From Rhodospirillaceae bacterium (GTDB lineage: Bacteria > Pseudomonadota > Alphaproteobacteria > UBA6615), in the NCBI GenBank assembly GCA_018667335.1, contig JABIVD010000030.1, forward strand, positions 1 through 51,310: 51,310 nt of DNA, in the 5' to 3' direction. The number at the start of each line of letters is the position of its first letter. Position 1 is the first letter of the stretch. A program made the translations under genes and the position numbers. Shown here in pieces: positions 4,879 through 44,133 of the stretch. Below the pieces are notes generated by a model. The model did no database searches. It was not told the origin of the DNA and saw nothing but the letters and a program-made list of their open reading frames with translations.

Positions 4879-5565
4879 TCAGGCCGCTTCCTCCGCCGCA
4901 GCGCCGGCGCGTTCGTTCAGGTCGTCGAAATCATCGGGCCAGTTGTCGGCCAACCAGCGCAGATAGGTCTTGATGTTGCCCGGGTCGATGTGGACGGTCC
5001 CCCGGATCTTGTCGACCTCGGATTGATCCTCGATGGTCAGCTTCAACGAGTCATTGAAGCGGTTGATCATGTTGAACATGGAGCAGATGAGGGTCAGTTC
5101 GACGATCTCGGCTTCGCTGTACTGCGCTGCGACGCGTTCATAGACGTCGTCGCGCGATGCCGCCGTGTTCTTGGTCATATGTTCGGCCCACTCGATCGCG
5201 GCGCGCTCGCGCGCGTCGAACAGGTCCGACGTCAGATAATCGTCGGACGATATGGCGATCACCTGATCATGGGAGATGCCGGCGGCTTCGCCGAGCGCGG
5301 TGTTGTGCGCGTAGCAATACTCACAGCCATTGATGTGGCTGGTCTTGATGATGACCATTTCCTTGATCTTGCCCGACATACGCACACCCGGCCATTCGCG
5401 CTGATTGGCGGCCTGGAACGGCAGGAAAAGCATCGCCAGATAGGGCGCATGGGCCATCGTGCGATAGGCGTTCGGCACCCGGCCAACCAGACCGGTGACG
5501 GCCTCGTAGAAATGCCTCAGCTCGTCGGGTGCGTTCTCGGGGTTGATAACCGGTACTCGTGCCAT
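4879..5565 (-). CDS. Carboxymuconolactone decarboxylase/AhpD-fold protein
   Basis: A 228-residue all-helical protein of the CMD/AhpD fold. The redox motif C81-E-Y-C84 with H87 (NGCEYCYAHN) follows a conserved KEMVIIKTSHIN segment, as in peroxidase-linked AhpD-like proteins rather than the Cys-less true decarboxylases. It probably acts as a thiol-dependent peroxidase or disulfide reductase. The gene diverges from the XRE-cupin regulator at 5804. The 238-base intergenic region contains a short palindrome at 5665-5676 that may be an operator. The sequence points to thiol chemistry, but the substrate is unknown. Confidence 0.85.
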   Translation of the reverse strand: MARVPVINPENAPDELRHFYEAVTGLVGRVPNAYRTMAHAPYLAMLFLPFQAANQREWPGVRMSGKIKEMVIIKTSHINGCEYCYAHNTALGEAAGISHDQVIAISSDDYLTSDLFDARERAAIEWAEHMTKNTAASRDDVYERVAAQYSEAEIVELTLICSMFNMINRFNDSLKLTIEDQSEVDKIRGTVHIDPGNIKTYLRWLADNWPDDFDDLNERAGAAAEEAA

Positions 5566-5664
5566 TTTTGCTCTCCCATACTTCGCCGCTGATGTTTTGG
5601 GCGTTTGCCCGGTACATGGTGTCGTTCCATGTCCGGTTGGTCACCGTGACTGCGTCGACTGATT

Positions 5665-5676
5665 GTTCATCTGAAC
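5665..5676. promoter_or_regulatory. Short palindrome in divergent promoter, possible operator
   Basis: GTTCA-TC-TGAAC is a perfect 5-base inverted repeat in the region between the AhpD-like gene (minus strand) and the XRE-cupin regulator (plus strand). Its position suits autoregulation or control of the divergent gene. It is short, so chance occurrence is possible. Confidence 0.3.
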
Positions 5677-5803
5677 GAACCGTTAGACAAGGTCCGAGAC
5701 TGTTTTTGATCCGGTTCCGCTACACTGCCGGACCGATGGTTGGTCATCTACTGTAGAATCGGACGATCATCACGGTAGAAATAAGCAGATTCCGGCGGCG
5801 CAA

Positions 5804-6421
5804 TTGACCAGCAAGAACATAGAAAATGTGAGCCTGCCACACGCAGGTCCTGCCGCGCGGCCCGGTCTGGCGCTCGGCGCGCGCCTGCGGCATCACCGGA
5901 TGCTGCTCGGAAAGAAGCTCAAGGAAATTGCCGAAATCGCGGGTTGTTCTGAAAGTCTTCTGTCGAAGCTGGAGAACGGCCACGCCAACCCGTCGGTCCG
6001 GATGCTGCACCGTATCGCAATGGCGCTCGAGATCAATGTGGCGTCGCTGTTTGAGGATGATGGTTCGACGACCGGACTGGTGACGCGCGCCGAGGATCGC
6101 CCGCTCATCGATACGGAACCGTCGCGTGGCGGTCACGGCGTGCGTATGCAGCGCCTCATACCCTATGCCGACGGCCACCTGCTCCAGGGCAACATCCATA
6201 TCGTTGAGCCGGGTGGAGAGTCTGCGGGATATCTGGAGCATGTCGGAGAGGAGATCGGGTACGTCATCGAGGGGGAGATCGAACTCACCGTCGGCGATGA
6301 GGTCGTACAGCTTCGTGCCGGGGATTCGTTCAACTTTCGCTCGGAACGCCCGCACAAATATCGTAACCCGGGCAGTTCTGTCGCCCATATCGTCTGGGTT
6401 AATACACCTCCAACATTTTGA
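5804..6421 (+). CDS. XRE-family transcriptional regulator with C-terminal cupin sensor domain
   Basis: Two-domain regulator of about 205 residues. The helix-turn-helix spans roughly residues 25-82 (KLKEIAEIAGCSESLLSKLE and following). The cupin domain spans about 130-200 (IVEPGGESAGYLEHVGEEIG and GDSFNFRSERPHKYRNPG). This PuuR/HipB-like architecture usually senses a small molecule and controls an adjacent catabolic operon. No ATG start exists in this frame: TTG 5804 and GTG 5828 are the candidates, and neither has a strong ribosome site. Immediately downstream is an AT-rich palindromic region and then the oxygenase operon, so that operon is the likely target. Confidence 0.88.
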   Translation: MTSKNIENVSLPHAGPAARPGLALGARLRHHRMLLGKKLKEIAEIAGCSESLLSKLENGHANPSVRMLHRIAMALEINVASLFEDDGSTTGLVTRAEDRPLIDTEPSRGGHGVRMQRLIPYADGHLLQGNIHIVEPGGESAGYLEHVGEEIGYVIEGEIELTVGDEVVQLRAGDSFNFRSERPHKYRNPGSSVAHIVWVNTPPTF

Positions 6422-6441
6422 ATTTACGTATTATTATCTCC

Positions 6442-6471
6442 AATATTCAAGTCACTTGAATATTATTCAAA
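6442..6471. promoter_or_regulatory. AT-rich overlapping palindromes, likely operator of the oxygenase operon
   Basis: AATATTCAAGT at 6442-6452 and ACTTGAATATT at 6454-6464 form a perfect 11-base inverted repeat with one central base. Overlapping it, TTGAATA-T-TATTCAA at 6457-6471 is a second perfect palindrome. The surrounding 6420-6490 stretch is strikingly AT-rich for this GC-rich window. It lies between the XRE-cupin regulator and the operon starting at 6517, which fits a regulator-binding site overlapping the promoter. Binding by the upstream regulator is an inference. Confidence 0.6.
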
Positions 6472-6516
6472 TGACTTTAAAGTTGGCCGTAGAATCTCAG
6501 GGAAAGGGAACCGACC

Positions 6517-7077
6517 ATGACCGAATTTGCGACGCCCGAGGGGCTCGAACACGTCAAATATTACAAGTCGCCACGCGACAACCGCGTCGTCGCGATTCAC
6601 ATCCGCGCCGGCTTCGAGGAGTTCGAGAGTTTTCCGCCGTTCATGGACACCGAAGAAGAGCATGAGCATATTCGCAAGTCCTACAATGTCGATCCGACGT
6701 CCGAGCGTCGCAACAAGGCGCACATCACCGACGACAACTGGCCGCTCCAGGTGATCATGCTGAACCGCGATCCTGGCGGGACCACGGCCGCGCATTACCA
6801 TGTTCCCGATCCGGAATTCCCGCTGCCCGACCATCCCACGCGCCATCAGATTTTGCTCTGCCAGCGTGGCAAGGCCCGCATCGGCGTCTATGCAACCGAG
6901 GGTGATTTCCTCGGCGATGTAATCCTCGCGCCGAACGATCTGATCCTCATGGTCGAGGGCCACGAGGTCGAGTTCCTCGAGAAGGGAACTCGCCTGATCG
7001 AGATCAAGCAGGGGCCATTCCCCGAGACCGACGAGGCCGACAAGGTCGACCTCAAGGACAAGGTGGCGGCGGAATGA
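6517..7077 (+). CDS. Cupin-fold protein, possible metal-dependent dioxygenase
   Basis: A 186-residue protein with a cupin core. H93 and H95 in AAHYHVPD, then H106 and H110 before a glycine-rich turn (CQRGKARIGVY), give a plausible metal site. The C-terminal beta strands include APNDLILMVEGHEVEFLEKG. The ATG at 6517 follows an AGGGAAAGGG tract. It is the first gene after the palindromic operator and overlaps the next gene by four bases, so the two are translationally coupled. A hydrolase of the fumarylacetoacetase fold downstream suggests that the cupin could open or rearrange a compound whose product the hydrolase then cleaves. That pathway role is inferred only. Confidence 0.72.
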   Translation: MTEFATPEGLEHVKYYKSPRDNRVVAIHIRAGFEEFESFPPFMDTEEEHEHIRKSYNVDPTSERRNKAHITDDNWPLQVIMLNRDPGGTTAAHYHVPDPEFPLPDHPTRHQILLCQRGKARIGVYATEGDFLGDVILAPNDLILMVEGHEVEFLEKGTRLIEIKQGPFPETDEADKVDLKDKVAAE

Positions 7078-8123
7078 AGCTCGCGACATTCAGGGTCGAA
7101 ACCCCCGTCGGACCGTTCGACCGCTTCGGCGTGGTGCGCCTCGACGACGGCGACACGATCGAGAACGCGCGCCACGGCAAGGGCCAGATCATCGATATCA
7201 ATTTCGCCTATGCGGCCATGCAGGCCGATGGCGGTGATTCGAACCCGACGGGGCGCGCGGAAGCCTTCTGTCCGGCGGACCTGCAGCAGTTTGCCGGTCT
7301 CTACGGCACGGACCTCGGCCTGCTGGAGGAAACGGTCGCCTGGGCCGAAGCCCATCGTGACGCAACGGGACCCCGCGGCGAGACGCTGATCTGGTCGCTG
7401 GCTGACATCGCCTTGCGCCCGCCGATCGCCCGCGTCCCCGTGTTGCGTGACTTTGCGGCGTTCGAAGACCATCTCGAGAACACGTTCGGCAAGATGGACC
7501 TGTCGATCCCGCCGGCCTGGTACGACCAGCCGACGGCGTTCAAGGGCAACTCGACGACGATGTTCGGTCACGATTCCACCGTGCCCTGGCCGCGCTACAC
7601 CAAGAAGCTCGACTACGAGCTGGAGCTGGCCGCGATCATCGGCAAGCCGGCGCTCGACGTGGATCTCGACAACGCGTCGGACTACATCATGGGCTACACG
7701 CTGCTGAATGACTTTTCGGCCCGCGACACCCAGCGCGGCGAGATGCAGGTCAGCACCGGTCCATACAAGGGCAAGGATTTCGCATGGGGCCTCGGGCCCT
7801 GGATCGTTACATCCGACGAGATGGGTGACCCGGCCGACCTGCAGATGGCCGTGCGGATCGACGGCGAGGTCTGGGCGGAATCGACGCCCGGTCCGATGCA
7901 GTGGAGCTTCCCCGAAGCGGTGTCCTACACATCTCAGGATGAGATGCTGAACATCGGTGAGGTGCTCGGTTCGGGCACCGTCAACAATGGCTGCGGTTTC
8001 GAAATCGATCGCTGGATTTCGCCGGGGGCGGTGGTGGAACTGGAAGCCGATCGCATCGGGGTGCTGCGTCACCATGTCGCAGAGCCGAACGGTGCGCCGA
8101 TACGCTGGCAACGGGCGCAATAG
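7074..8123 (+). CDS. Fumarylacetoacetate hydrolase (FAH) family protein
   Basis: A 349-residue FAH-fold enzyme. The metal ligands of the family are visible as E182 and E184 in DYELELAAIIG and D213 in LLNDFSARD. FAH-family members hydrolyse C-C bonds in acylpyruvates or decarboxylate related diacids using Mg or Mn. The start codon overlaps the stop of the cupin gene (ATGA at 7074). The length and the N-terminal domain resemble true FAH-like enzymes rather than the short acylpyruvases. Substrate unknown; probably a catabolic step in the operon. Confidence 0.88.
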   Translation: MKLATFRVETPVGPFDRFGVVRLDDGDTIENARHGKGQIIDINFAYAAMQADGGDSNPTGRAEAFCPADLQQFAGLYGTDLGLLEETVAWAEAHRDATGPRGETLIWSLADIALRPPIARVPVLRDFAAFEDHLENTFGKMDLSIPPAWYDQPTAFKGNSTTMFGHDSTVPWPRYTKKLDYELELAAIIGKPALDVDLDNASDYIMGYTLLNDFSARDTQRGEMQVSTGPYKGKDFAWGLGPWIVTSDEMGDPADLQMAVRIDGEVWAESTPGPMQWSFPEAVSYTSQDEMLNIGEVLGSGTVNNGCGFEIDRWISPGAVVELEADRIGVLRHHVAEPNGAPIRWQRAQ

Positions 8124-8147
8124 AGACCGCGAAAGGGGCGCAAATCA

Positions 8148-9110
8148 ATGACGGTCCGTTCGGAAATTCCGGTTATCGATGTCTCTGCCGTCGTGAATGA
8201 TGATTCGGCGGGGATCGACGATCTCGCGCGCCAGATGGGCGAGGCCTGCCGCCGGATTGGTTTCTTCTGTGTGACCGGGCACGGCATCGATCCCGCCGTG
8301 CTGCGACGTAGTTTCGAAATGTCACAGGCGTTCTTCGCGCTGCCGCTCGAACGGAAGATGGCGGTCACGATGACGAAGTCGCCGAACAATCTGGGCTACA
8401 TGCCCTTCGCGGGCGAAACTCTTGATCCGGACAAGCCCGGCGATCTCAAGGAGACCTACAATCTCGGCCTCGACCTGGCGGCCGATGATCCGGAGATACT
8501 GGCCGGGAAGCCCTTTCGTGGGGTGAACCAATGGCCCGACTTGCCGGATTTCCGTGCGGCGATGCTGGCCTACTACAACGCCGTCTGGACGCTTGGCCGG
8601 CAGCTGCATTTCGCCTTCAGCCGCGACCTGGGCCTCGCCGACGAATTTTTCGAAGATAAACTCGACCGCCCGCTCGGCTACCTGCGCCTGCTTCATTACC
8701 CCGCGAATGCGCAGCCAACGGTCGCGGGCCAGACGGGAGCGGGCGAGCACACCGACTATGGCAACATCACACTCTTGTTGCCGGATGCCACACCCGGCCT
8801 CGAGGTGCGCACCCGCGAGGGTGACTGGATCGAACCGCCCGCCGTGCCCGACGCGTTCGTCTGCAACATCGGCGACTGCCTGATGCGCTGGACGAACGAC
8901 ATCTATGTCTCCACGCCCCACCGGGTTCGCGTGCCCGAGCAGGAGCGCTACTCCATCGCGTTCTTCCTCGACCCCAATCCGGATGCCGACGTGACGGTCC
9001 TGCCGGCCTGCGTCAGTGACGAAAGGCCGGCAAAATATCCGCCGACGACCGGCGCAACGTATTTGGCGGAGCGACTCACCGCGACGCAGGAATTCCGCCG
9101 CGACATGTGA
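8148..9110 (+). CDS. 2OG-Fe(II) oxygenase, isopenicillin N synthase-like
   Basis: A 320-residue enzyme with the DIOX_N N-terminal domain (VIDVSAVVND, RIGFFCVTGHGID) and the double-stranded beta-helix core. The iron ligands are H201 and D203 (GEHTDYG) and H258 (STPHRV). R267-x-S269 is the 2-oxoglutarate anchor. The family hydroxylates, desaturates or cyclises small molecules. Ribosome site GAAAGGGG precedes the ATG at 8148. It is the third gene of the operon that begins at 6517 and is followed by a weak terminator-like hairpin. The substrate cannot be deduced. Confidence 0.9.
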   Translation: MTVRSEIPVIDVSAVVNDDSAGIDDLARQMGEACRRIGFFCVTGHGIDPAVLRRSFEMSQAFFALPLERKMAVTMTKSPNNLGYMPFAGETLDPDKPGDLKETYNLGLDLAADDPEILAGKPFRGVNQWPDLPDFRAAMLAYYNAVWTLGRQLHFAFSRDLGLADEFFEDKLDRPLGYLRLLHYPANAQPTVAGQTGAGEHTDYGNITLLLPDATPGLEVRTREGDWIEPPAVPDAFVCNIGDCLMRWTNDIYVSTPHRVRVPEQERYSIAFFLDPNPDADVTVLPACVSDERPAKYPPTTGATYLAERLTATQEFRRDM

Positions 9111-9145
9111 GCGTTCATTGGGCCAGGCTCATAGAATCGATTTCG

Positions 9146-9169
9146 GCCGACGCAACGGCTTCCTTTTTT
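9146..9169 (+). terminator. Weak rho-independent terminator after the first oxygenase gene
   Basis: GCCG at 9146-9149 pairs with CGGC at 9156-9159 across a 6-base loop, with one further G-T pair outside. A T-rich tract (TCCTTTTTTG) follows. The stem is short, so termination may be partial. If functional it separates the operon ending at 9110 from the two oxygenases starting at 9291. Confidence 0.35.
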
Positions 9170-9179
9170 GTCGTGCAGG

Positions 9180-9193
9180 TTGATCCACATCAA
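9180..9193. promoter_or_regulatory. FNR/FixK/CRP-like box upstream of the tandem oxygenases
   Basis: TTGATCCACATCAA matches the FNR/FixK consensus TTGAT-N4-ATCAA perfectly. It lies 97 bases before the GTG of the next gene, leaving room for a class II promoter and a leader of about 60 bases. It falls in the 180-base intergenic region just after a weak terminator. The match is seen in the sequence. Oxygen- or redox-dependent control is inferred. Confidence 0.6.
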
Positions 9194-9290
9194 GACGTTA
9201 CAAGGCGGGATGCGCACTCTCTTTCGATAGACAGGCAGCGGTCTGGCTGGCGATCGGGATTCGATCGACGGGGGCCGGCTGGGAACGAGT

Positions 9291-9908
9291 GTGATTGATT
9301 TTGCCGCCATCGCCCGCGCAGAAGTGGCGCGCGAGCCATTTCAGTTTTTCGCCGCACCCGAGGTGCTGAAGGCAGCGGATTTGGCGGCGATTGCGGCGGA
9401 TTTCCCCGATATCCGCAAGCCCGGTGTGTATCCACTTTCGGCGCTGACCTATGGACCGGCCTTCGCCCGGCTGGTTGATGACATCCGCAGCCGGGAGATG
9501 GAAGACGTCATGGCCGAGATGTATGGCGTCGATCTCTCCGACAAACCTCTGATGATTACAGTGCGCGGCCAGGCACAGGAAAAAGATGGCCGCATTCATA
9601 CCGATACGGAGGCCAAATTCGTGACCTGTCTGCTGTATCTCAATGAGACATGGGATCAGGGCGAGGGGCGCTTGCGCTTGCTGCGCCGCCCGGATGACCT
9701 GAGTGACTATGTTGCGGAAATCCCGCCCGACGGCGGGGTTCTGGCCTCGTTTCTGCGTGCCGATAACTCCTGGCACGGACACGAGCCCGTTAAGGGGCAG
9801 CGGCGTTACGTGATGTTCAACTGGATGACCTCGTCAGACGCGCTGGAGCGCGAACTCGGACGCCACCGGTTCTCGGCAACGGTCAAAAAGCTCAATCCGT
9901 TTGCGTAA
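9291..9908 (+). CDS. 2OG-Fe(II) oxygenase (prolyl-hydroxylase-like), first of a tandem pair
   Basis: A 205-residue protein with the minimal iron and 2-oxoglutarate site: H103-x-D105 (GRIHTDTEAKF), H162 (DNSWHGHEP) and R171 or R172 (GQRRYVMFNW). The overall organisation matches small 2OG-Fe(II) oxygenases often found near glycan or secondary-metabolite genes. The GTG start at 9291 is the only reasonable start before the conserved N-terminal region, and no strong ribosome site precedes it. It is followed after 21 bases by a second oxygenase of similar layout. It is preceded by an FNR/FixK-like box, notable because the enzyme would need oxygen. Confidence 0.82.
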   Translation: MIDFAAIARAEVAREPFQFFAAPEVLKAADLAAIAADFPDIRKPGVYPLSALTYGPAFARLVDDIRSREMEDVMAEMYGVDLSDKPLMITVRGQAQEKDGRIHTDTEAKFVTCLLYLNETWDQGEGRLRLLRRPDDLSDYVAEIPPDGGVLASFLRADNSWHGHEPVKGQRRYVMFNWMTSSDALERELGRHRFSATVKKLNPFA

Positions 9909-9929
9909 GGACGGAAACAAAGGAAGCAG

Positions 9930-10607
9930 ATGATGGGGCAGCCCTCGCAGACGATTTCGGTGAACGCTCCGTCGGAAACCTCCGTGGCCGGCTCGTTCCT
10001 GGCATGCCTGCAACGCGCCGCACACGAAACATCACCCTACGACCACTGGCTCCTCGATGGCACGCTGCCCGACGGCTGTTGCGACGACATCCTCGCGCTA
10101 CCGTTCCCGCCGCCGGTGGACACCGTTTTCGACGGCCGGCGCGAGAGCAACAACAGCCTGCGGGTCTACTTCACGCCCGAAAACCAGCAAAAATACGCTG
10201 TCTGCCGCCGTGTTGTTGCGGGCTTCGAGGACCCGGGGGTGAGAAAGACCATAGAGGAAGTCACCGGCACCGATCTTTCCGATGGTCTGTTGCGGATCGA
10301 ATTCTGCCAGGACACCGCAGGCTTCTGGCTCGAGCCCCACACGGATATCTCGGTGAAGAAGTTCACCATGCTGGTTTATCTGGCGGACGACCCGGGCCTG
10401 GCAAATGCCGGCACCGACATTCTCGAAGGCCCGCCCGATCACAAGTATGTCGGATCGGCGCCCTATGGAATGAACAAGGGGGTGATTTTCATCCCCGGCG
10501 AAAACACCTGGCATGGCGTCGGCCATCACCCGGTCTCCGGCACCCGCAAATCGATCATCATCAACTACGTAACGCCGGACTGGCGCGGTACGGCTGAACT
10601 CGCCTGA
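9930..10607 (+). CDS. 2OG-Fe(II) oxygenase, second of a tandem pair
   Basis: A 225-residue oxygenase. Ligands visible are H137-x-D139 (LEPHTDISVKKF), H195 (GENTWHGVGHH) and R206 (GTRKSIIINYV). Its spacing and the NTWHG motif parallel the NSWHG motif of the preceding protein, which indicates related folds and possibly an old duplication. Start at ATG 9930 or 9933; AGGAAG lies just upstream. The gene ends one base before the convergent acyl-CoA dehydrogenase-like gene. Substrate unknown. The DGRRESNNSLRVYF region before the core is typical of the longer members of this group. Confidence 0.82.
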   Translation: MMGQPSQTISVNAPSETSVAGSFLACLQRAAHETSPYDHWLLDGTLPDGCCDDILALPFPPPVDTVFDGRRESNNSLRVYFTPENQQKYAVCRRVVAGFEDPGVRKTIEEVTGTDLSDGLLRIEFCQDTAGFWLEPHTDISVKKFTMLVYLADDPGLANAGTDILEGPPDHKYVGSAPYGMNKGVIFIPGENTWHGVGHHPVSGTRKSIIINYVTPDWRGTAELA

Positions 10608-10608
10608 A

Positions 10609-11829
10609 CTAGCCCAGATTTTCGCTCAGAAGCGGCGATGTCTCCCGTTTGAAACCTGCCAGCGCCTCGGCGATGCGGTAGCGGGTCGGGAAGGGGAACG
10701 AAATGTGCTTCTGTACCAATGCATCGCGCACATATTTCTCGATCGGCATACCCTGGATGACGCCCATGCCACCGAAAAGTTCCATGGCCTGTTCGGTGAT
10801 GCGCTGGACCGCTGTGCCGGTGAAAGCCGTCGCCATCATCTCGTAGGGCTGCCAATCGGCGCTCCCATCGGCGAAGGCCTCCGGGTTGTCCTTGGCCCAT
10901 GCCGCAGTCCAGATCAGCCGCCGCGCGGCCTCGAGGTTTGTGGCCATGTCGGCAAGGAACAACCCGACTGCCTGGTGCTCGATGATCGGTTTGCCCCCGG
11001 CGCGCCGTTCCTGGACGTATTTTATGGTTTCCTCGAGCGCCGCGCGGCCGAGGCCCAGCGTGATCGCGGCGATGGTCACATGTGTGCCCATGTCGGACCG
11101 TGGCGGGATCGCTGCGAGAATTCGGCCGGGCGGCACCCGGACGTCGTCGTAGAAGATCTCCGCGTTGTCGCCAATCTTCCGGCCGATCTTCGACATTGGG
11201 TGGCGCACCAGCCCCTCGGATTCTCCCTCGACAAGGAAGGCGCGCGGACCGTCTTTGGTCTGCGCCATGGTAACGATCAGCTTGGCGAGATAGCCGACGG
11301 TCTGGAAGTTCTTGGCGCCGTTGATTAGCCATGATCCGTCGGGCTGTTCGACCGCGCGGGTTCTGAATTCCGCGTCGGCTGGCGTCTCGGTGAAGTAGTC
11401 GAAACCGAGGTCAGTGTCGGGCTCATGGATGGCGACGGTGGTGAAATAGGTGTCGTCCTCGAGAAAGCGCGGGATGAAATATTCGCGCTGTTCGTCGGTC
11501 ATGCGTAATTCGAACCAGTCGCGCGCGCGCCGTGCCGTCAGCATGAAGTAGTAAGCCGTGCCGATGTCTCCCGCGGCCAGTTCTTCGGCGACGATGCAGG
11601 CGGTCAGATGATCGGACGCACCCGCACCACCATTCTCTTCCTGCAGCACGAAGGATCGAAAGCCGAGCTGCGAGCCCTTTTTCAGCACATCCCAGGGAAT
11701 ACGGTCTTCCCAGTTCGGCTTTGCGTCCAGTTCGAGGGCGATTGGCTTGATCTCGTTTTCGGCGAAGTCACGCGCCATCTGCTGGAACGCGCGCTGTTCC
11801 TCGTTCAGTCGGATATCGAACATGGTCAC
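10609..11829 (-). CDS. Acyl-CoA dehydrogenase family flavoprotein
   Basis: A 406-residue protein with the three ACAD domains: helical N-terminus (NEEQRAFQQMARDFAENEIK), central beta domain (GSWLINGAKNFQTVG) and C-terminal helices (AMELFGGMGVIQGMPIEKY). It would use FAD and pass electrons to ETF. In the segment where short- and medium-chain enzymes carry the catalytic Glu (YEGT after RDA), this protein reads RDALVQKHISFPF, with Ser in place of Glu. The substrate or chemistry may therefore differ. A GAGGAGTGACC tract precedes the ATG at 11829. It lies 9 bases after the dehalogenase-like gene and is probably cotranscribed with it. Confidence 0.85.
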   Translation of the reverse strand: MTMFDIRLNEEQRAFQQMARDFAENEIKPIALELDAKPNWEDRIPWDVLKKGSQLGFRSFVLQEENGGAGASDHLTACIVAEELAAGDIGTAYYFMLTARRARDWFELRMTDEQREYFIPRFLEDDTYFTTVAIHEPDTDLGFDYFTETPADAEFRTRAVEQPDGSWLINGAKNFQTVGYLAKLIVTMAQTKDGPRAFLVEGESEGLVRHPMSKIGRKIGDNAEIFYDDVRVPPGRILAAIPPRSDMGTHVTIAAITLGLGRAALEETIKYVQERRAGGKPIIEHQAVGLFLADMATNLEAARRLIWTAAWAKDNPEAFADGSADWQPYEMMATAFTGTAVQRITEQAMELFGGMGVIQGMPIEKYVRDALVQKHISFPFPTRYRIAEALAGFKRETSPLLSENLG

Positions 11830-11838
11830 TCCTCCTCG

Positions 11839-12825
11839 TTAGTCGTCCGCCCACCGCTTGGTGTCGTTCCAGCTTCGCTTGGGCTCGGTAAACTCGGTTG
11901 TTGGGTTGTTCATCTGGATGAACTGCTCAACCAGCGCAGACACGGTTTCCGGCGCATCTTCCTGGAGATAATGACCGACCCCGGGCAGCGAAATGAGCGG
12001 GCCGTTGGGCCAGAAGCTCTTGAAACGGAATTTCACCCAGTGCGGCGGCATTGCCCGGTCTTCCTCGCCGATGATGCACATGGCGGGGATGGTCTTGAGC
12101 ACGTTGATGTCGTGGGTCTCGGCCATCTCTTTGAAGAACCGGAATGTGTCCGGGTTGGCGATGGCGCGGGGGAATGCCAACGCCCCGCGGCAGGATTCTA
12201 CGGTTGGGAAGGGGCCGGAGAAGGCGCGGACCCAGGTCTCGTCCACATGGTCGGTGTTCTCGAACCCGACACGCTTCATCACCGACAGGATGGTCGAACC
12301 GAGATGGGACAGGGTGGGCTCAAACTCATGGGTCTGGGTCCAGTTGAACCATTTGTGGTGTTCGGTCGGGAAGGTGGCGTCGATCGGCTCGTCGGACCAC
12401 GGCGCGTAGGTGTTGCAGATCGCCAGGCATTTGACGCGGTCGGGATGGCGCAGCGCGAAGCTGATGCCGATCGAGCCACCCCAGTCCTGCATCACGAAGG
12501 TGATGTTACGCACGTCCAGATCGAGCAGTAAGCGCTCTAGATTGTCGGCGTGATCGCGGATGGAATAGTCGCGGTCCTGCGGGGTCTCGCTTTTGCCGAA
12601 GCCCATATGGTCCGGCACGATGACCCGGCCGACCTTGCTCAACCGGGGAATAAAATTCCGATAGAGATAGCCCCAGGTCGGCTCGCCGTGGAGCGGGATG
12701 ATGACGTCGTCCGCGCCCTCGGGTGCGTTGTTCACATCGACATAGTGCTGGCGAAAGCCATTGCCCTCGAAGAAATGCGGCTCAAACGGCCAGGTGCCGT
12801 CGAATGTCTCGTCTGCTGGTATCAT
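11839..12825 (-). CDS. Haloalkane dehalogenase-like alpha/beta hydrolase (DhlA-like, HLD-I)
   Basis: About 328 residues from the ATG at 12825. LHGEPTWGYLYRNF (residues 45-58) is the haloalkane dehalogenase oxyanion-hole motif. D114-W115 in VMQDWGGSIG is the Asp nucleophile with its halide-binding Trp. D256 and H285 (PGVGHYLQED) complete the triad, with the spacing expected for the DhlA/HLD-I subfamily. These enzymes hydrolyse carbon-halogen bonds in the cytoplasm. The start is chosen for its GGTGGA ribosome site; a longer frame to 12897 lacks one. Fluoroacetate dehalogenases and epoxide hydrolases are relatives, but the HGEPTW motif favours haloalkane dehalogenase. Confidence 0.8.
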   Translation of the reverse strand: MIPADETFDGTWPFEPHFFEGNGFRQHYVDVNNAPEGADDVIIPLHGEPTWGYLYRNFIPRLSKVGRVIVPDHMGFGKSETPQDRDYSIRDHADNLERLLLDLDVRNITFVMQDWGGSIGISFALRHPDRVKCLAICNTYAPWSDEPIDATFPTEHHKWFNWTQTHEFEPTLSHLGSTILSVMKRVGFENTDHVDETWVRAFSGPFPTVESCRGALAFPRAIANPDTFRFFKEMAETHDINVLKTIPAMCIIGEEDRAMPPHWVKFRFKSFWPNGPLISLPGVGHYLQEDAPETVSALVEQFIQMNNPTTEFTEPKRSWNDTKRWADD

Positions 12826-12891
12826 GTGTCCACCGGGGTTCAGTTGAGCGTAACGATCGCCGGAACCGGGTCTCCATCGATCATTTGAACG

Positions 12892-12954
12892 TCTCATTTG
12901 GTGAGATTATTCGAGGCGCCGATACCCGCCTGACAACGGTAGCCTGACAACGGT
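12892..12954. repeat. Palindrome and tandem 13-base repeat in a divergent promoter region
   Basis: GCCTGACAACGGT occurs twice, at 12928-12940 and 12942-12954, separated by one base. Just upstream TCTCA (12892-12896) and TGAGA (12902-12906) form an inverted repeat. The region lies between the divergent dehalogenase and amidohydrolase genes, where an activator or repressor could bind. No local regulator is assigned. Confidence 0.4.
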
Positions 12955-13018
12955 CTTGCAAACGCCTATTTTCGAGCTGTAACGCAATTGCCTGTTCTCA
13001 AACCGGAGCCACCACGCG

Positions 13019-14002
13019 ATGCCCACGATTGATATTCACACCCACATGTTCGGCGACGGCTGGCTCGACATGATCAAAAAACATGGTGCGCCCGCCTACG
13101 AGATCGCGGACATGGAAGACCGCCGCAACTATCTGGTTGAATACGGCACCCCGGCCTGCGCGCTGGAGGTCGAGGCGTTCGACTATGACAAGCGGGTCGA
13201 GATGATGGACCGGTTGGGCATCGATATCTCCATCGTCTCGCTGACCTCGCCGAACGTGCATTTCGGCGACGAGGCGATCAGCGTCGCGACGGCGCGCCTG
13301 GCCAACGACGAGATGGCGGCCGGGCAGACGGCCTATCCCGATCGCATTCGCTGGTTTGCCTCCCTGCCGTGGGAGTATCCCGACGCGGCGCTCGCCGAAC
13401 TCGACCGGTGCATCGCATTGGGGGCGGTGGGGGTCATGTGCGTGGCCCATATCGGTACCCGCCATTTGATCGATCCGCTGTTCGCACCCGTCTGGGAGGC
13501 GCTGCACAAGCGTGCATTCCCGGTGCTCATCCACCCGACGGCACCCCTGGGTGCCAAAGACGTCAATTATGGTCATGAGCGCATCCTCATGCCGGCGGCC
13601 GGGTTCATGTACGACACGACGATTGCGCTTGCGCGGATGGCCATCGACGGTTTCTTCGAGCGCTTTTCGGATATCAAGATGATCGCCAGCCACGGCGGCG
13701 GCTATATCCCGTTCGTCAACGGACGGGTCGACATGTTCTTCGGTGTCGAGACCCTGGCGAAGTTCGATATCCCGAAACTGCCCAGCGACTATTTCAGCCA
13801 GCTCTACTATGACGCCATTGTCTATGACCCGGCGGCGTTGCAGCTGGTGATTGATATCGCGGGCCCGGAAAGGGTGATGTTCGGCACCGATCTGCCGATG
13901 CCCGCGGATGTCCCCAAACTCTATGAGCTCGTGGATGGCCGTCCGGCCGGAGAGATCGCCGCGATCCGTGGTGACAACGCGGTGCGCGTGTTCGGCCTCT
14001 AG
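13019..14002 (+). CDS. Amidohydrolase family protein, ACMSD-like decarboxylase/hydrolase
   Basis: A 327-residue TIM-barrel protein of the amidohydrolase-2 group (ACMSD, gamma-resorcylate decarboxylase). Metal ligands visible are H7-x-H9 (IDIHTHMF), H172 (VLIHPTAP), H225 (IASHGGGYIPF) and D291 (MFGTDLPM). The family mostly performs non-oxidative decarboxylation or hydrolysis of aromatic or unsaturated acids. The ATG at 13019 is set by the conserved N-terminal metal motif; the upstream region is poor in purine-rich signals. A RidA-family gene follows 24 bases later, a common pairing in aromatic and amino-acid degradation loci because RidA removes reactive enamines. Confidence 0.85.
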   Translation: MPTIDIHTHMFGDGWLDMIKKHGAPAYEIADMEDRRNYLVEYGTPACALEVEAFDYDKRVEMMDRLGIDISIVSLTSPNVHFGDEAISVATARLANDEMAAGQTAYPDRIRWFASLPWEYPDAALAELDRCIALGAVGVMCVAHIGTRHLIDPLFAPVWEALHKRAFPVLIHPTAPLGAKDVNYGHERILMPAAGFMYDTTIALARMAIDGFFERFSDIKMIASHGGGYIPFVNGRVDMFFGVETLAKFDIPKLPSDYFSQLYYDAIVYDPAALQLVIDIAGPERVMFGTDLPMPADVPKLYELVDGRPAGEIAAIRGDNAVRVFGL

Positions 14003-14026
14003 AACGTCACGACCGGGAGCAAATCC

Positions 14027-14431
14027 ATGACCGAACGTGAATCCTCTGTGCGCTATCTCGCACCCGCAGGCGCGATCAAGCCAACGGGCACCTGGTCGCT
14101 GGCGAGCCGCGCCGGCGATCATGTTTTTGTGGCCGGGATGCGCGGCATCGATCCGGCGACGAACGAACTGGTCAAGGGAGATGAGAACCGGATCCGCCAG
14201 GCATTCGAGAATATGGCGCATATCGCGGCATCGGAAGGTGCCGGTCTTGGTGATGCGGTCCGGCTCACCGTCTATGTCACCGACATGGACCGTTACCGGC
14301 CGATCGTGAACAAGGTCCAGGAGGAAATCTGGGCCGGCGGGCCTTATCCGCCGCGCACGATCCTCGAGGTCTCGGCGCTTAACCAGGACGATATATTCGA
14401 GGTTGAGGGCACGTTCTACGCCCCTGTTTGA
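14027..14431 (+). CDS. RidA family reactive enamine/imine deaminase
   Basis: A 134-residue single-domain RidA/YjgF protein. The substrate-binding arginine R110 is seen in GGPYPPRTILEVSAL, and the characteristic ending is DDIFEVEGTFYAPV. GGGAGC precedes the ATG at 14027. It is probably cotranscribed with the ACMSD-like gene and may hydrolyse an enamine or imine intermediate or act as a pathway isomerase. The last 16 bases overlap the convergent MFS transporter gene. Confidence 0.88.
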   Translation: MTERESSVRYLAPAGAIKPTGTWSLASRAGDHVFVAGMRGIDPATNELVKGDENRIRQAFENMAHIAASEGAGLGDAVRLTVYVTDMDRYRPIVNKVQEEIWAGGPYPPRTILEVSALNQDDIFEVEGTFYAPV

Positions 14432-43578: not shown

Positions 43579-44133
43579 CTACTCCGCCGCGACGTCTTTC
43601 AGATTGCCCGCGTCATCCACGACCAGCCCGGTCTCCCGGGCACGGTCGATCACGCTGGGATGCCAGGCGACCTTGCCGGCGTCCGGGCCGCCGACGATCG
43701 CCAGCATCAGCGCATCGTCCTCATCGGTGATGCAGCGGAAGCCCCGATACACGCCGACCGGCACGCTGACGACATCGAGGGGTTCGAGTGCTATGGCGCG
43801 TTCCTCGTCGCCCTCCAGCCAGACAACCTCCCAGGTGCCCTTCATGGGCACGAACACCTCTTCGGTCTGGTGGACATGGAAGGCCGGGCCCGAGCCGCTG
43901 CCGGGGGTTCGCTTGTTGTAGACGAGGGAGAATCCGAAGGCGCTGCCCAGTTTCGGGATGAGATCGGGATCGTCCTGATTCTCGGTCACGTTCATGCCGA
44001 TGACGTTGACGATCTCGCGCTCATGACCGGGCAGGCGCTGGTCGAGATAGGCGAGGTCCGACCCGTTGCAGTCGGCGTAGCGCACGACATGCTTCTTCTC
44101 CATGTTGGCGGCGGAAACTTTTGGCGTGTCCAT
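43579..44133 (-). CDS. Cupin domain-containing protein
   Basis: About 184 residues from ATG 44133 (GAGAGGA ribosome site upstream). The frame continues to 44202, but the extra 23 residues are low-complexity and are excluded. Core motif AFHVHQTEEVFVPMKGTWEV (His, His, Glu) and a following EPLDVVSVPVGVYRGFRCI strand. The C-terminal VGGPDAGKVAWHPSVIDRA may bind a carboxylate. It lies between two copies of a palindromic repeat and is not obviously part of the FDH system. Dioxygenase or isomerase activity is possible. Confidence 0.75.
   Translation of the reverse strand: MDTPKVSAANMEKKHVVRYADCNGSDLAYLDQRLPGHEREIVNVIGMNVTENQDDPDLIPKLGSAFGFSLVYNKRTPGSGSGPAFHVHQTEEVFVPMKGTWEVVWLEGDEERAIALEPLDVVSVPVGVYRGFRCITDEDDALMLAIVGGPDAGKVAWHPSVIDRARETGLVVDDAGNLKDVAAE

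Follow-up and report, generated by a model that had tools for sequence, protein, structure and literature searches.

The window analysed here is one whole contig (JABIVD010000030.1, 51,310 nt) of the 3.55-Mb genome of a Rhodospirillaceae bacterium, and the subject of this work is a set of four genes that it carries on the plus strand: a gene for a regulator, followed by genes for a cupin protein, a hydrolase and an oxygenase. The regulator gene (5804-6421; the start is TTG as listed, and its exact position is uncertain) encodes an XRE-family protein with a C-terminal Cupin_2 domain, i.e. of PuuR-like architecture, and an AT-rich gap of 95 nt separates it from the cupin gene (6517-7077), whose product belongs to a family without a Pfam model. 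The latter gene overlaps by ATGA that of an enzyme of the fumarylacetoacetate hydrolase (FAH) superfamily (7074-8123; Pfam FAA_hydrolase, 1.7e-52), which is followed by a gene for a 2-oxoglutarate (2OG)-Fe(II) oxygenase (8148-9110; DIOX_N and 2OG-FeII_Oxy domains). Two predicted operators lie in the AT-rich gap, and a terminator-like hairpin (9145-9160, plus strand), a weak match in a consensus scan with 1 found against 0.2 expected, stands 3' of the oxygenase gene and possibly marks the end of the operon. An earlier note, made from the letters of this DNA, had listed the same four genes, and all of them are borne out by the open reading frames (ORFs) of the window.

The explanation that we favour, with some reserve, is that these genes form a catabolic operon that is inducible and controlled locally by its PuuR-type XRE-cupin regulator; a catabolic role of the operon is likely. 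The earlier note had proposed a catabolic unit with three dedicated enzymes. Its local regulator with a conserved operator, its overlapping cupin and FAH genes and its likely catabolic role stand, but the three-enzyme set is not supported in that form, and the unit should be redrawn with the cupin and the FAH enzyme as its core, the regulator and tandem operators as its switch, and the oxygenase as an optional part. We judge the operon to be of an ordinary kind and uncharacterised, its cupin representing a family for which Pfam has no model; as the note had supposed, the gene combination appears to be undescribed, in that literature searches aimed at it (open-licence papers only) yielded no description and, apart from one unrelated transcriptome paper, no papers at all.

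The cupin-FAH pair

When 84,980 species genomes were scanned with two peptide patterns, which would miss diverged relatives, 20 distinct cupin loci were obtained; five of them (L015, L016, L017, L022, L031) apparently lie in genomes already found in a search of 60 relatives. Gene counts given below are based on tblastn, because the clusters produced by a crude ORF picker often contained antisense frames in GC-rich loci; the LysR count, taken from these clusters, is the exception. An FAH gene directly follows the cupin gene in 16 of the 20 loci, and all 16 related pairs show the four-base gene overlap (ATGA in 15, GTGA in one). The overlap is also present in the window and on an Aminobacter plasmid (L007), where the two genes are annotated as 'hypothetical protein' and 'fumarylacetoacetate hydrolase family protein'. 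The identity matrices of the two proteins are correlated with r 0.95 over 136 pairs, a value that shared ancestry alone could also make high. Judging from this gene organisation, the cupin and the FAH enzyme are the conserved core pair of the unit, and it is very likely that they act in one pathway. Against this stand L021, L023, L024 and L031, in which FAH is not adjacent (in L024 the contig ends 132 bases on); in L023 (positions 10001-11549), a Burkholderiaceae metagenome-assembled genome, FAH behind the cupin is replaced by a gene similar to ACMSD (PDB 4ign, E 6.5e-56).

The cupin is distributed patchily: it was found in 6 of the 60 relatives, in 6 of 24 genomes of the family and in one of 385 genomes of the class, namely the window's own (E 1e-20). 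A tblastn search with the cupin returned one plasmid in all, while plasmid relatives of the FAH enzyme with 37-41% identity have other partners, in three neighbourhoods.

The FAH enzyme has the FAA_hydrolase domain, the ExE...D metal ligands and the lid histidine of its superfamily, and residues H133, E182, E184, D213, R217, Q220 and K234, which belong to the metal site and the lid, are invariant in all 17 aligned sequences, the window's included. All seven of its NCBIfam matches are below the cut-offs, and it falls short of the model for fumarylacetoacetase proper (TIGR01266, 59.3 bits against a cut-off of 375.3). The domain, metal site and lid histidine are shared with enzymes of the YisK and L-2,4-diketo-3-deoxyrhamnonate hydrolase types, from which it differs by a longer N-terminal part, a GSGTVNxGCGFE signature and the overlap with the cupin gene. 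We infer an enzyme of the acylpyruvate or 2,4-dioxo-acid type, and the chance that its substrate is of the 2,4-dioxo-acid type appears about even.

These similarities also bear on an alternative, according to which the pair would not be a catabolic route but would serve metabolite repair or tautomerisation and dispose of a toxic enol acid, in the manner of the oxaloacetate tautomerases/decarboxylases of the FAH superfamily. Among PDB entries the FAH profile matches 8sky best, which we take to be YisK, an oxaloacetate decarboxylase. Tautomerase and decarboxylase activities in the superfamily are described in a review of FAHD1 (PMC12176266). However, a repair enzyme is expected to be widespread and constitutive, and the patchy distribution of the cupin, the ligand-responsive type of the regulator and the nearby transporter genes are therefore unlike one, which makes the repair module improbable.

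The reaction of the cupin is harder to assign. Canonical metal-binding cupins have the motif G(X)5HXH...E(X)6G and a further histidine in motif 2. The window protein has no Pfam family and no related sequence in the PDB (best E 0.72 with a single sequence and 0.36 with a profile), and G87-X5-H93-X-H95, Q111-X6-G118 and H149 are invariant in all 21 aligned cupins. H93, H95, Q111 and H149 stand where canonical cupins have their ligands, but with Gln for Glu and a longer spacing. Similarity to the WbuC family is weak (E 4.4e-5, below the NCBIfam cut-off). An AlphaFold2 model from the 21-row alignment has the cupin fold with a mean pLDDT (model confidence score) of 72.9, and this moderate confidence is another point against our interpretation. 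In a structure search with the model the 50 best entries had Z of 10.3 to 12.3, sugar-nucleotide isomerases and epimerases coming first, and the fold is shared with metal cupins (Ni-quercetinase), sugar 3,4-ketoisomerases and RmlC epimerases; since many cupins are matched, the result is too general for assigning a reaction. An isomerase or tautomerase is perhaps a little short of an even bet, and an oxygen-using enzyme is possible but somewhat doubtful. A more speculative idea, to which we give only limited credence, is that the cupin represents a new family with a metal site of three His and one Gln that would pass an unstable enol or 2,4-dioxo acid directly to the FAH enzyme, the two forming a cassette behind varied uptake systems and first-step oxidases in marine and soil proteobacteria, with the 2OG oxygenase as one such oxidase.

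A pathway of the kynurenine type was considered and set aside. Such a scheme comprises the HAAO cupin, ACMSD, the RidA deaminase and an FAH decarboxylase, and it was made attractive by ACMSD-like and RidA-like genes of the window (13019-14431) and by the ACMSD-like gene behind the cupin in L023. However, the cupin has no significant sequence match in the PDB, and an ACMSD-like gene occurs in only two of the 20 loci (L020, L023). Chains of 3-hydroxyanthranilate dioxygenase, which are presumably present in the PDB, are absent from its sequence matches there. The window genes in question encode an ACMSD-like amidohydrolase (PDB 4ign, E 4.6e-37) followed by a RidA-like protein, named from its sequence, a pair of aminomuconate type.

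The regulator and its predicted tandem operators

The gap between the regulator and cupin genes contains a perfect palindrome of 23 nt with 11-bp arms (6442-6464), the sole one in the window with such arms and a centre of 0-2 nt. Such a palindrome appeared in none of 20000 dinucleotide shuffles of the 95-nt gap, but shuffling the whole window produced one in 5 of 40 trials; because of the latter figure the palindrome on its own is modest support, and more weight attaches to conservation. In a locus from the same genus as the window (L022, taken as G005) the gap holds TTCAAGTGACTTGAA and then, 20 bp on, TTCAAATAACTTTAG; in one from another genus of the family (L016, taken as G017) it holds TTTTAGTAACTTGAA and TTCAAATACCTTTAG with the same 20-bp spacing, degenerate relative to the window operator. 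The element has thus been kept in front of the cupin gene in two further genomes, which answers the concern of the earlier note that the palindromes might prove unconserved. That note had also described two overlapping perfect palindromes, and the second, TTGAATATTATTCAA, can indeed be read by eye at 6456-6470. However, its inner bases are not conserved in either relative while its half-sites are, so that it is better described as the junction of the facing half-sites of two tandem operators. The AT-rich element is accordingly best read as two predicted operators 20 bp apart, neither assigned to a strand: operator 1, TTCAAGTCACTTGAA (6446-6460), which is the core of the 23-nt palindrome, and operator 2, TTCAAATGACTTTAA (6466-6480), a weaker tandem copy. 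The regulator gene of L022 is found at the opposite end of the operon, downstream of the oxygenase gene, with about 2.8 kb between it and the site; the cupin promoter has therefore kept its site even though the regulator gene was relocated.

The regulator shows the XRE-cupin architecture with both domains above the Pfam cut-offs (HTH_31, 43.4 bits; Cupin_2, 69.6 bits), and its N-terminal part is also matched by HTH_3. PuuR is an XRE-cupin regulator that locally controls a catabolic operon, that of putrescine utilisation. The window protein matches it along almost its whole length (NCBIfam NF007408, E 1.3e-22), sharing the N-terminal XRE helix-turn-helix (HTH) and the Cupin_2 domain at the C-terminus, but at 80.3 bits it stays far below the curated cut-off of 211 for PuuR itself, and no putrescine-pathway family was found among the 10 window proteins scanned (4879-14002). 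We regard it as a candidate local repressor of the cupin operon. A homologue (E ≤ 1e-10) is encoded in the fetched flanks, which are unequal and extend up to 10 kb, of 9 of the 20 cupin loci. In four of five such genomes checked no other protein of the genome matches the window regulator better than the linked one, which ranks second in the fifth (Aquabacter); in this ranking coordinates were matched by hand and homologues were called by similarity.

From the distribution of sites it appears very probable that this regulator and the homologues closest to it are paired with the operator TTCAAGTNACTTGAA. The window genome contains a single site at up to one mismatch. Exact copies occur in three of the 24 family genomes (the samples termed family and order are identical): the window's own, G005 and G016, whereas a reversed control pattern gave no matches. 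All three are less than 3 kb from the regulator or a close homologue. Two precede the cupin operon, and the third, in G016, is just upstream of the gene for a 49% identical regulator, beside a sugar-type ABC transporter operon. Mismatched sites were counted only beside a regulator, because the pattern, with a TTY start and one mismatch allowed, occurred in 11 of the 24 genomes, fewer than the 15 in which the reversed control did. By this rule G006 has a 2-mismatch site, flanked by a 60% identical regulator on one side and by a TRAP transporter operon on the other. In the Aquabacter genome a site with 1 mismatch, placed between a LysR gene and hydrolase/dehydrogenase genes, is 2.5 kb away from a 50% identical regulator; in the stretch around another homologue of that genome (L088, 42%) no site was found at up to three mismatches. 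L020 has a weak 3-mismatch site upstream of its TRAP operon.

Besides the behaviour of the relaxed pattern, several observations speak against a regulator and operator that belong to the unit throughout. Among the cupin-bearing family genomes a regulator of at least 83% identity is found only in G000 and G005; in G019 and G015, which have the cupin-FAH pair, no regulator match was obtained at E ≤ 1e-3. G017 retains the degenerate site, yet its best regulator match is 35% identical, and G013 encodes a 46% identical regulator on another contig from the cupin, with only 3-mismatch sites around it. In the Hyphomicrobiales loci with 38-43% identical regulators there is no exact or near copy of the operator beside the cupin gene. 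Another palindrome, of the type GGAAC/GAAAC..GTTCC/GTTTC, is seen by eye upstream of the cupin gene in L025, L026, L027, L032 and L007; the regulators of these five loci differ from the window regulator in the HTH. In the window itself the single match of a promoter consensus scan (6466-6495) overlaps operator 2, but one match against 0.7 expected is at the level of chance. The scan found no terminator between the regulator and cupin genes, and read-through from the regulator gene is therefore possible.

The 2OG oxygenase as an optional member

Oxygenases of the 2OG-Fe(II) type are recognised by the HxD...H iron triad and an arginine of the 2OG site. In the window protein these are H201, D203, H258 and R267, all invariant in the three aligned sequences; the arginine is followed by Y-S269 in the window and L022, and by Y-T in L031. 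The nearest PDB match is 9ovh (E 7.6e-68), and isopenicillin N synthase matches at E 6e-18, so the label 'isopenicillin-N-synthase-like' given earlier is apt at the level of the fold family and no closer. With 9ovh and thymine dioxygenase (5c3p) the protein shares the DIOX_N and 2OG-FeII_Oxy domains and the HxD..H..RxS pattern. A paper on ancestors of the ethylene-forming enzyme mentions 9ovh (PMC12329707). The fold-family similarity might suggest a biosynthetic or tailoring cluster in which the oxygenase makes a secondary metabolite. This is very improbable, as no peptide or polyketide synthase family was found among the 10 window proteins scanned, and in other genomes the core pair is linked to uptake systems.

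It has greater appeal to assume, with the earlier note, that the oxygenase, the cupin and the FAH enzyme perform consecutive dedicated steps on one substrate: the genes are on the same strand with short gaps, the terminator-like hairpin comes after the oxygenase gene, and the three-gene order is identical in L022. However, L022, of the same genus and with an oxygenase of 87% identity, is the only one of the 20 loci in which the oxygenase is part of the cupin operon, as compared with 16 for FAH. The search for the gene neighbourhood thus recovered the cupin-FAH pair as a recurrent combination and not the trio, which does not hold as a general unit. Furthermore, no cupin or FAH gene was found around six relatives of the oxygenase with 50-68% identity (L033, L034, L058-L061), and in four of these stretches (all except L059 and L060) deaminase, creatininase, aldolase or cyclase genes are beside the oxygenase gene; the distant relatives L035 (49%) and L036 (41%) have yet other neighbours. 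We therefore consider a dedicated three-enzyme pathway unlikely.

Two of these relatives belong to a plasmid operon common to two Rhodobacterales (L033, L034), which comprises an ABC transporter, a cytosine-deaminase-like amidohydrolase, an FAD oxidoreductase, two NAD(P)H oxidoreductases, the oxygenase relative (50-55%) and a creatininase. In the window, the gene directly after the operon (9291-9908) encodes a protein with the Pfam domain 2OG-FeII_Oxy_3 and is followed by a small gene without a Pfam match (9930-10607); counterparts of both were not found in L022, and they have therefore been left outside the unit.

Genomic company and a possible pathway

The neighbours of the pair differ between groups of loci. 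Among nine loci of the Hyphomicrobiales type (L007, the Aminobacter plasmid; L024-L030, of which L024 breaks off right behind the cupin gene; and L032), RidA is found in six, a sugar-type binding-protein gene in seven, the regulator in eight and a LysR gene upstream in seven. A marine version (L015, L017) has genes for a DctM-like transporter, a nitroreductase, a D-2-hydroxy-acid dehydrogenase, a GST and a DUF1330 protein; relatives of the last two (68% and 51% identity) also accompany the regulator and TRAP operon in G006. L018 and, by homology, L019 have a FAD-linked oxidase and EamA transporters, while L020 combines a 52% identical regulator, the cupin-FAH pair and a TRAP operon 38-53% similar to that of G006 (names of the marine and L018 neighbours come from Pfam for L015 and L018, and from homology for the others). 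In L013 and L014, to the contrary, the scanned neighbours are not recognisably catabolic, which again counts against a catabolic operon. The recurrent uptake partners appear, by sequence similarity, to belong to families in which transport of small organic or sugar acids is common, and regulator homologues beside TRAP and sugar-type ABC transporter genes thus hint at an imported organic or sugar acid.

For the inducible catabolic operon we can envisage the following course of events. The regulator would bind both operator sites cooperatively and repress by covering the promoter, until its cupin domain took up a ligand, a small organic or sugar acid, that released it. The imported organic acid would be oxidised, by the 2OG oxygenase in this genus and elsewhere perhaps by the nearby hydroxy-acid dehydrogenases or FAD oxidases; from the product the cupin would form, by isomerisation or oxygenation, a 2,4-dioxo or enol acid, which the FAH enzyme would cleave or decarboxylate to central metabolites such as pyruvate.

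The unit deserves attention on several counts. The 15-bp operator defines a testable regulon, as it predicts which genes are controlled by an uncharacterised regulator, and the pair couples to an FAH enzyme a cupin that has neither a Pfam family nor a sequence-matched solved structure. If the substrate is found, the annotations of the genes on the Aminobacter plasmid and of the relatives in marine Alphaproteobacteria could be replaced by proper names.

Two further regions of the window may be mentioned in connection with transport. A TctA-like gene, the next gene (1455-2048) and a small cupin gene (2090-2494), together spanning 29-2494, are linked to the operon both here and in L022 (11002-13501), with 95.5% identity for the TctA-like protein and 86.6% for the cupin, and with different order and orientation in the two; the Tct names are our own presumptive assignments, and the set may serve this pathway for uptake. 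At 43588-44133 the window encodes a relative (41%) of the Cupin_2 protein found beside the DctM-like gene of L015 and L017.

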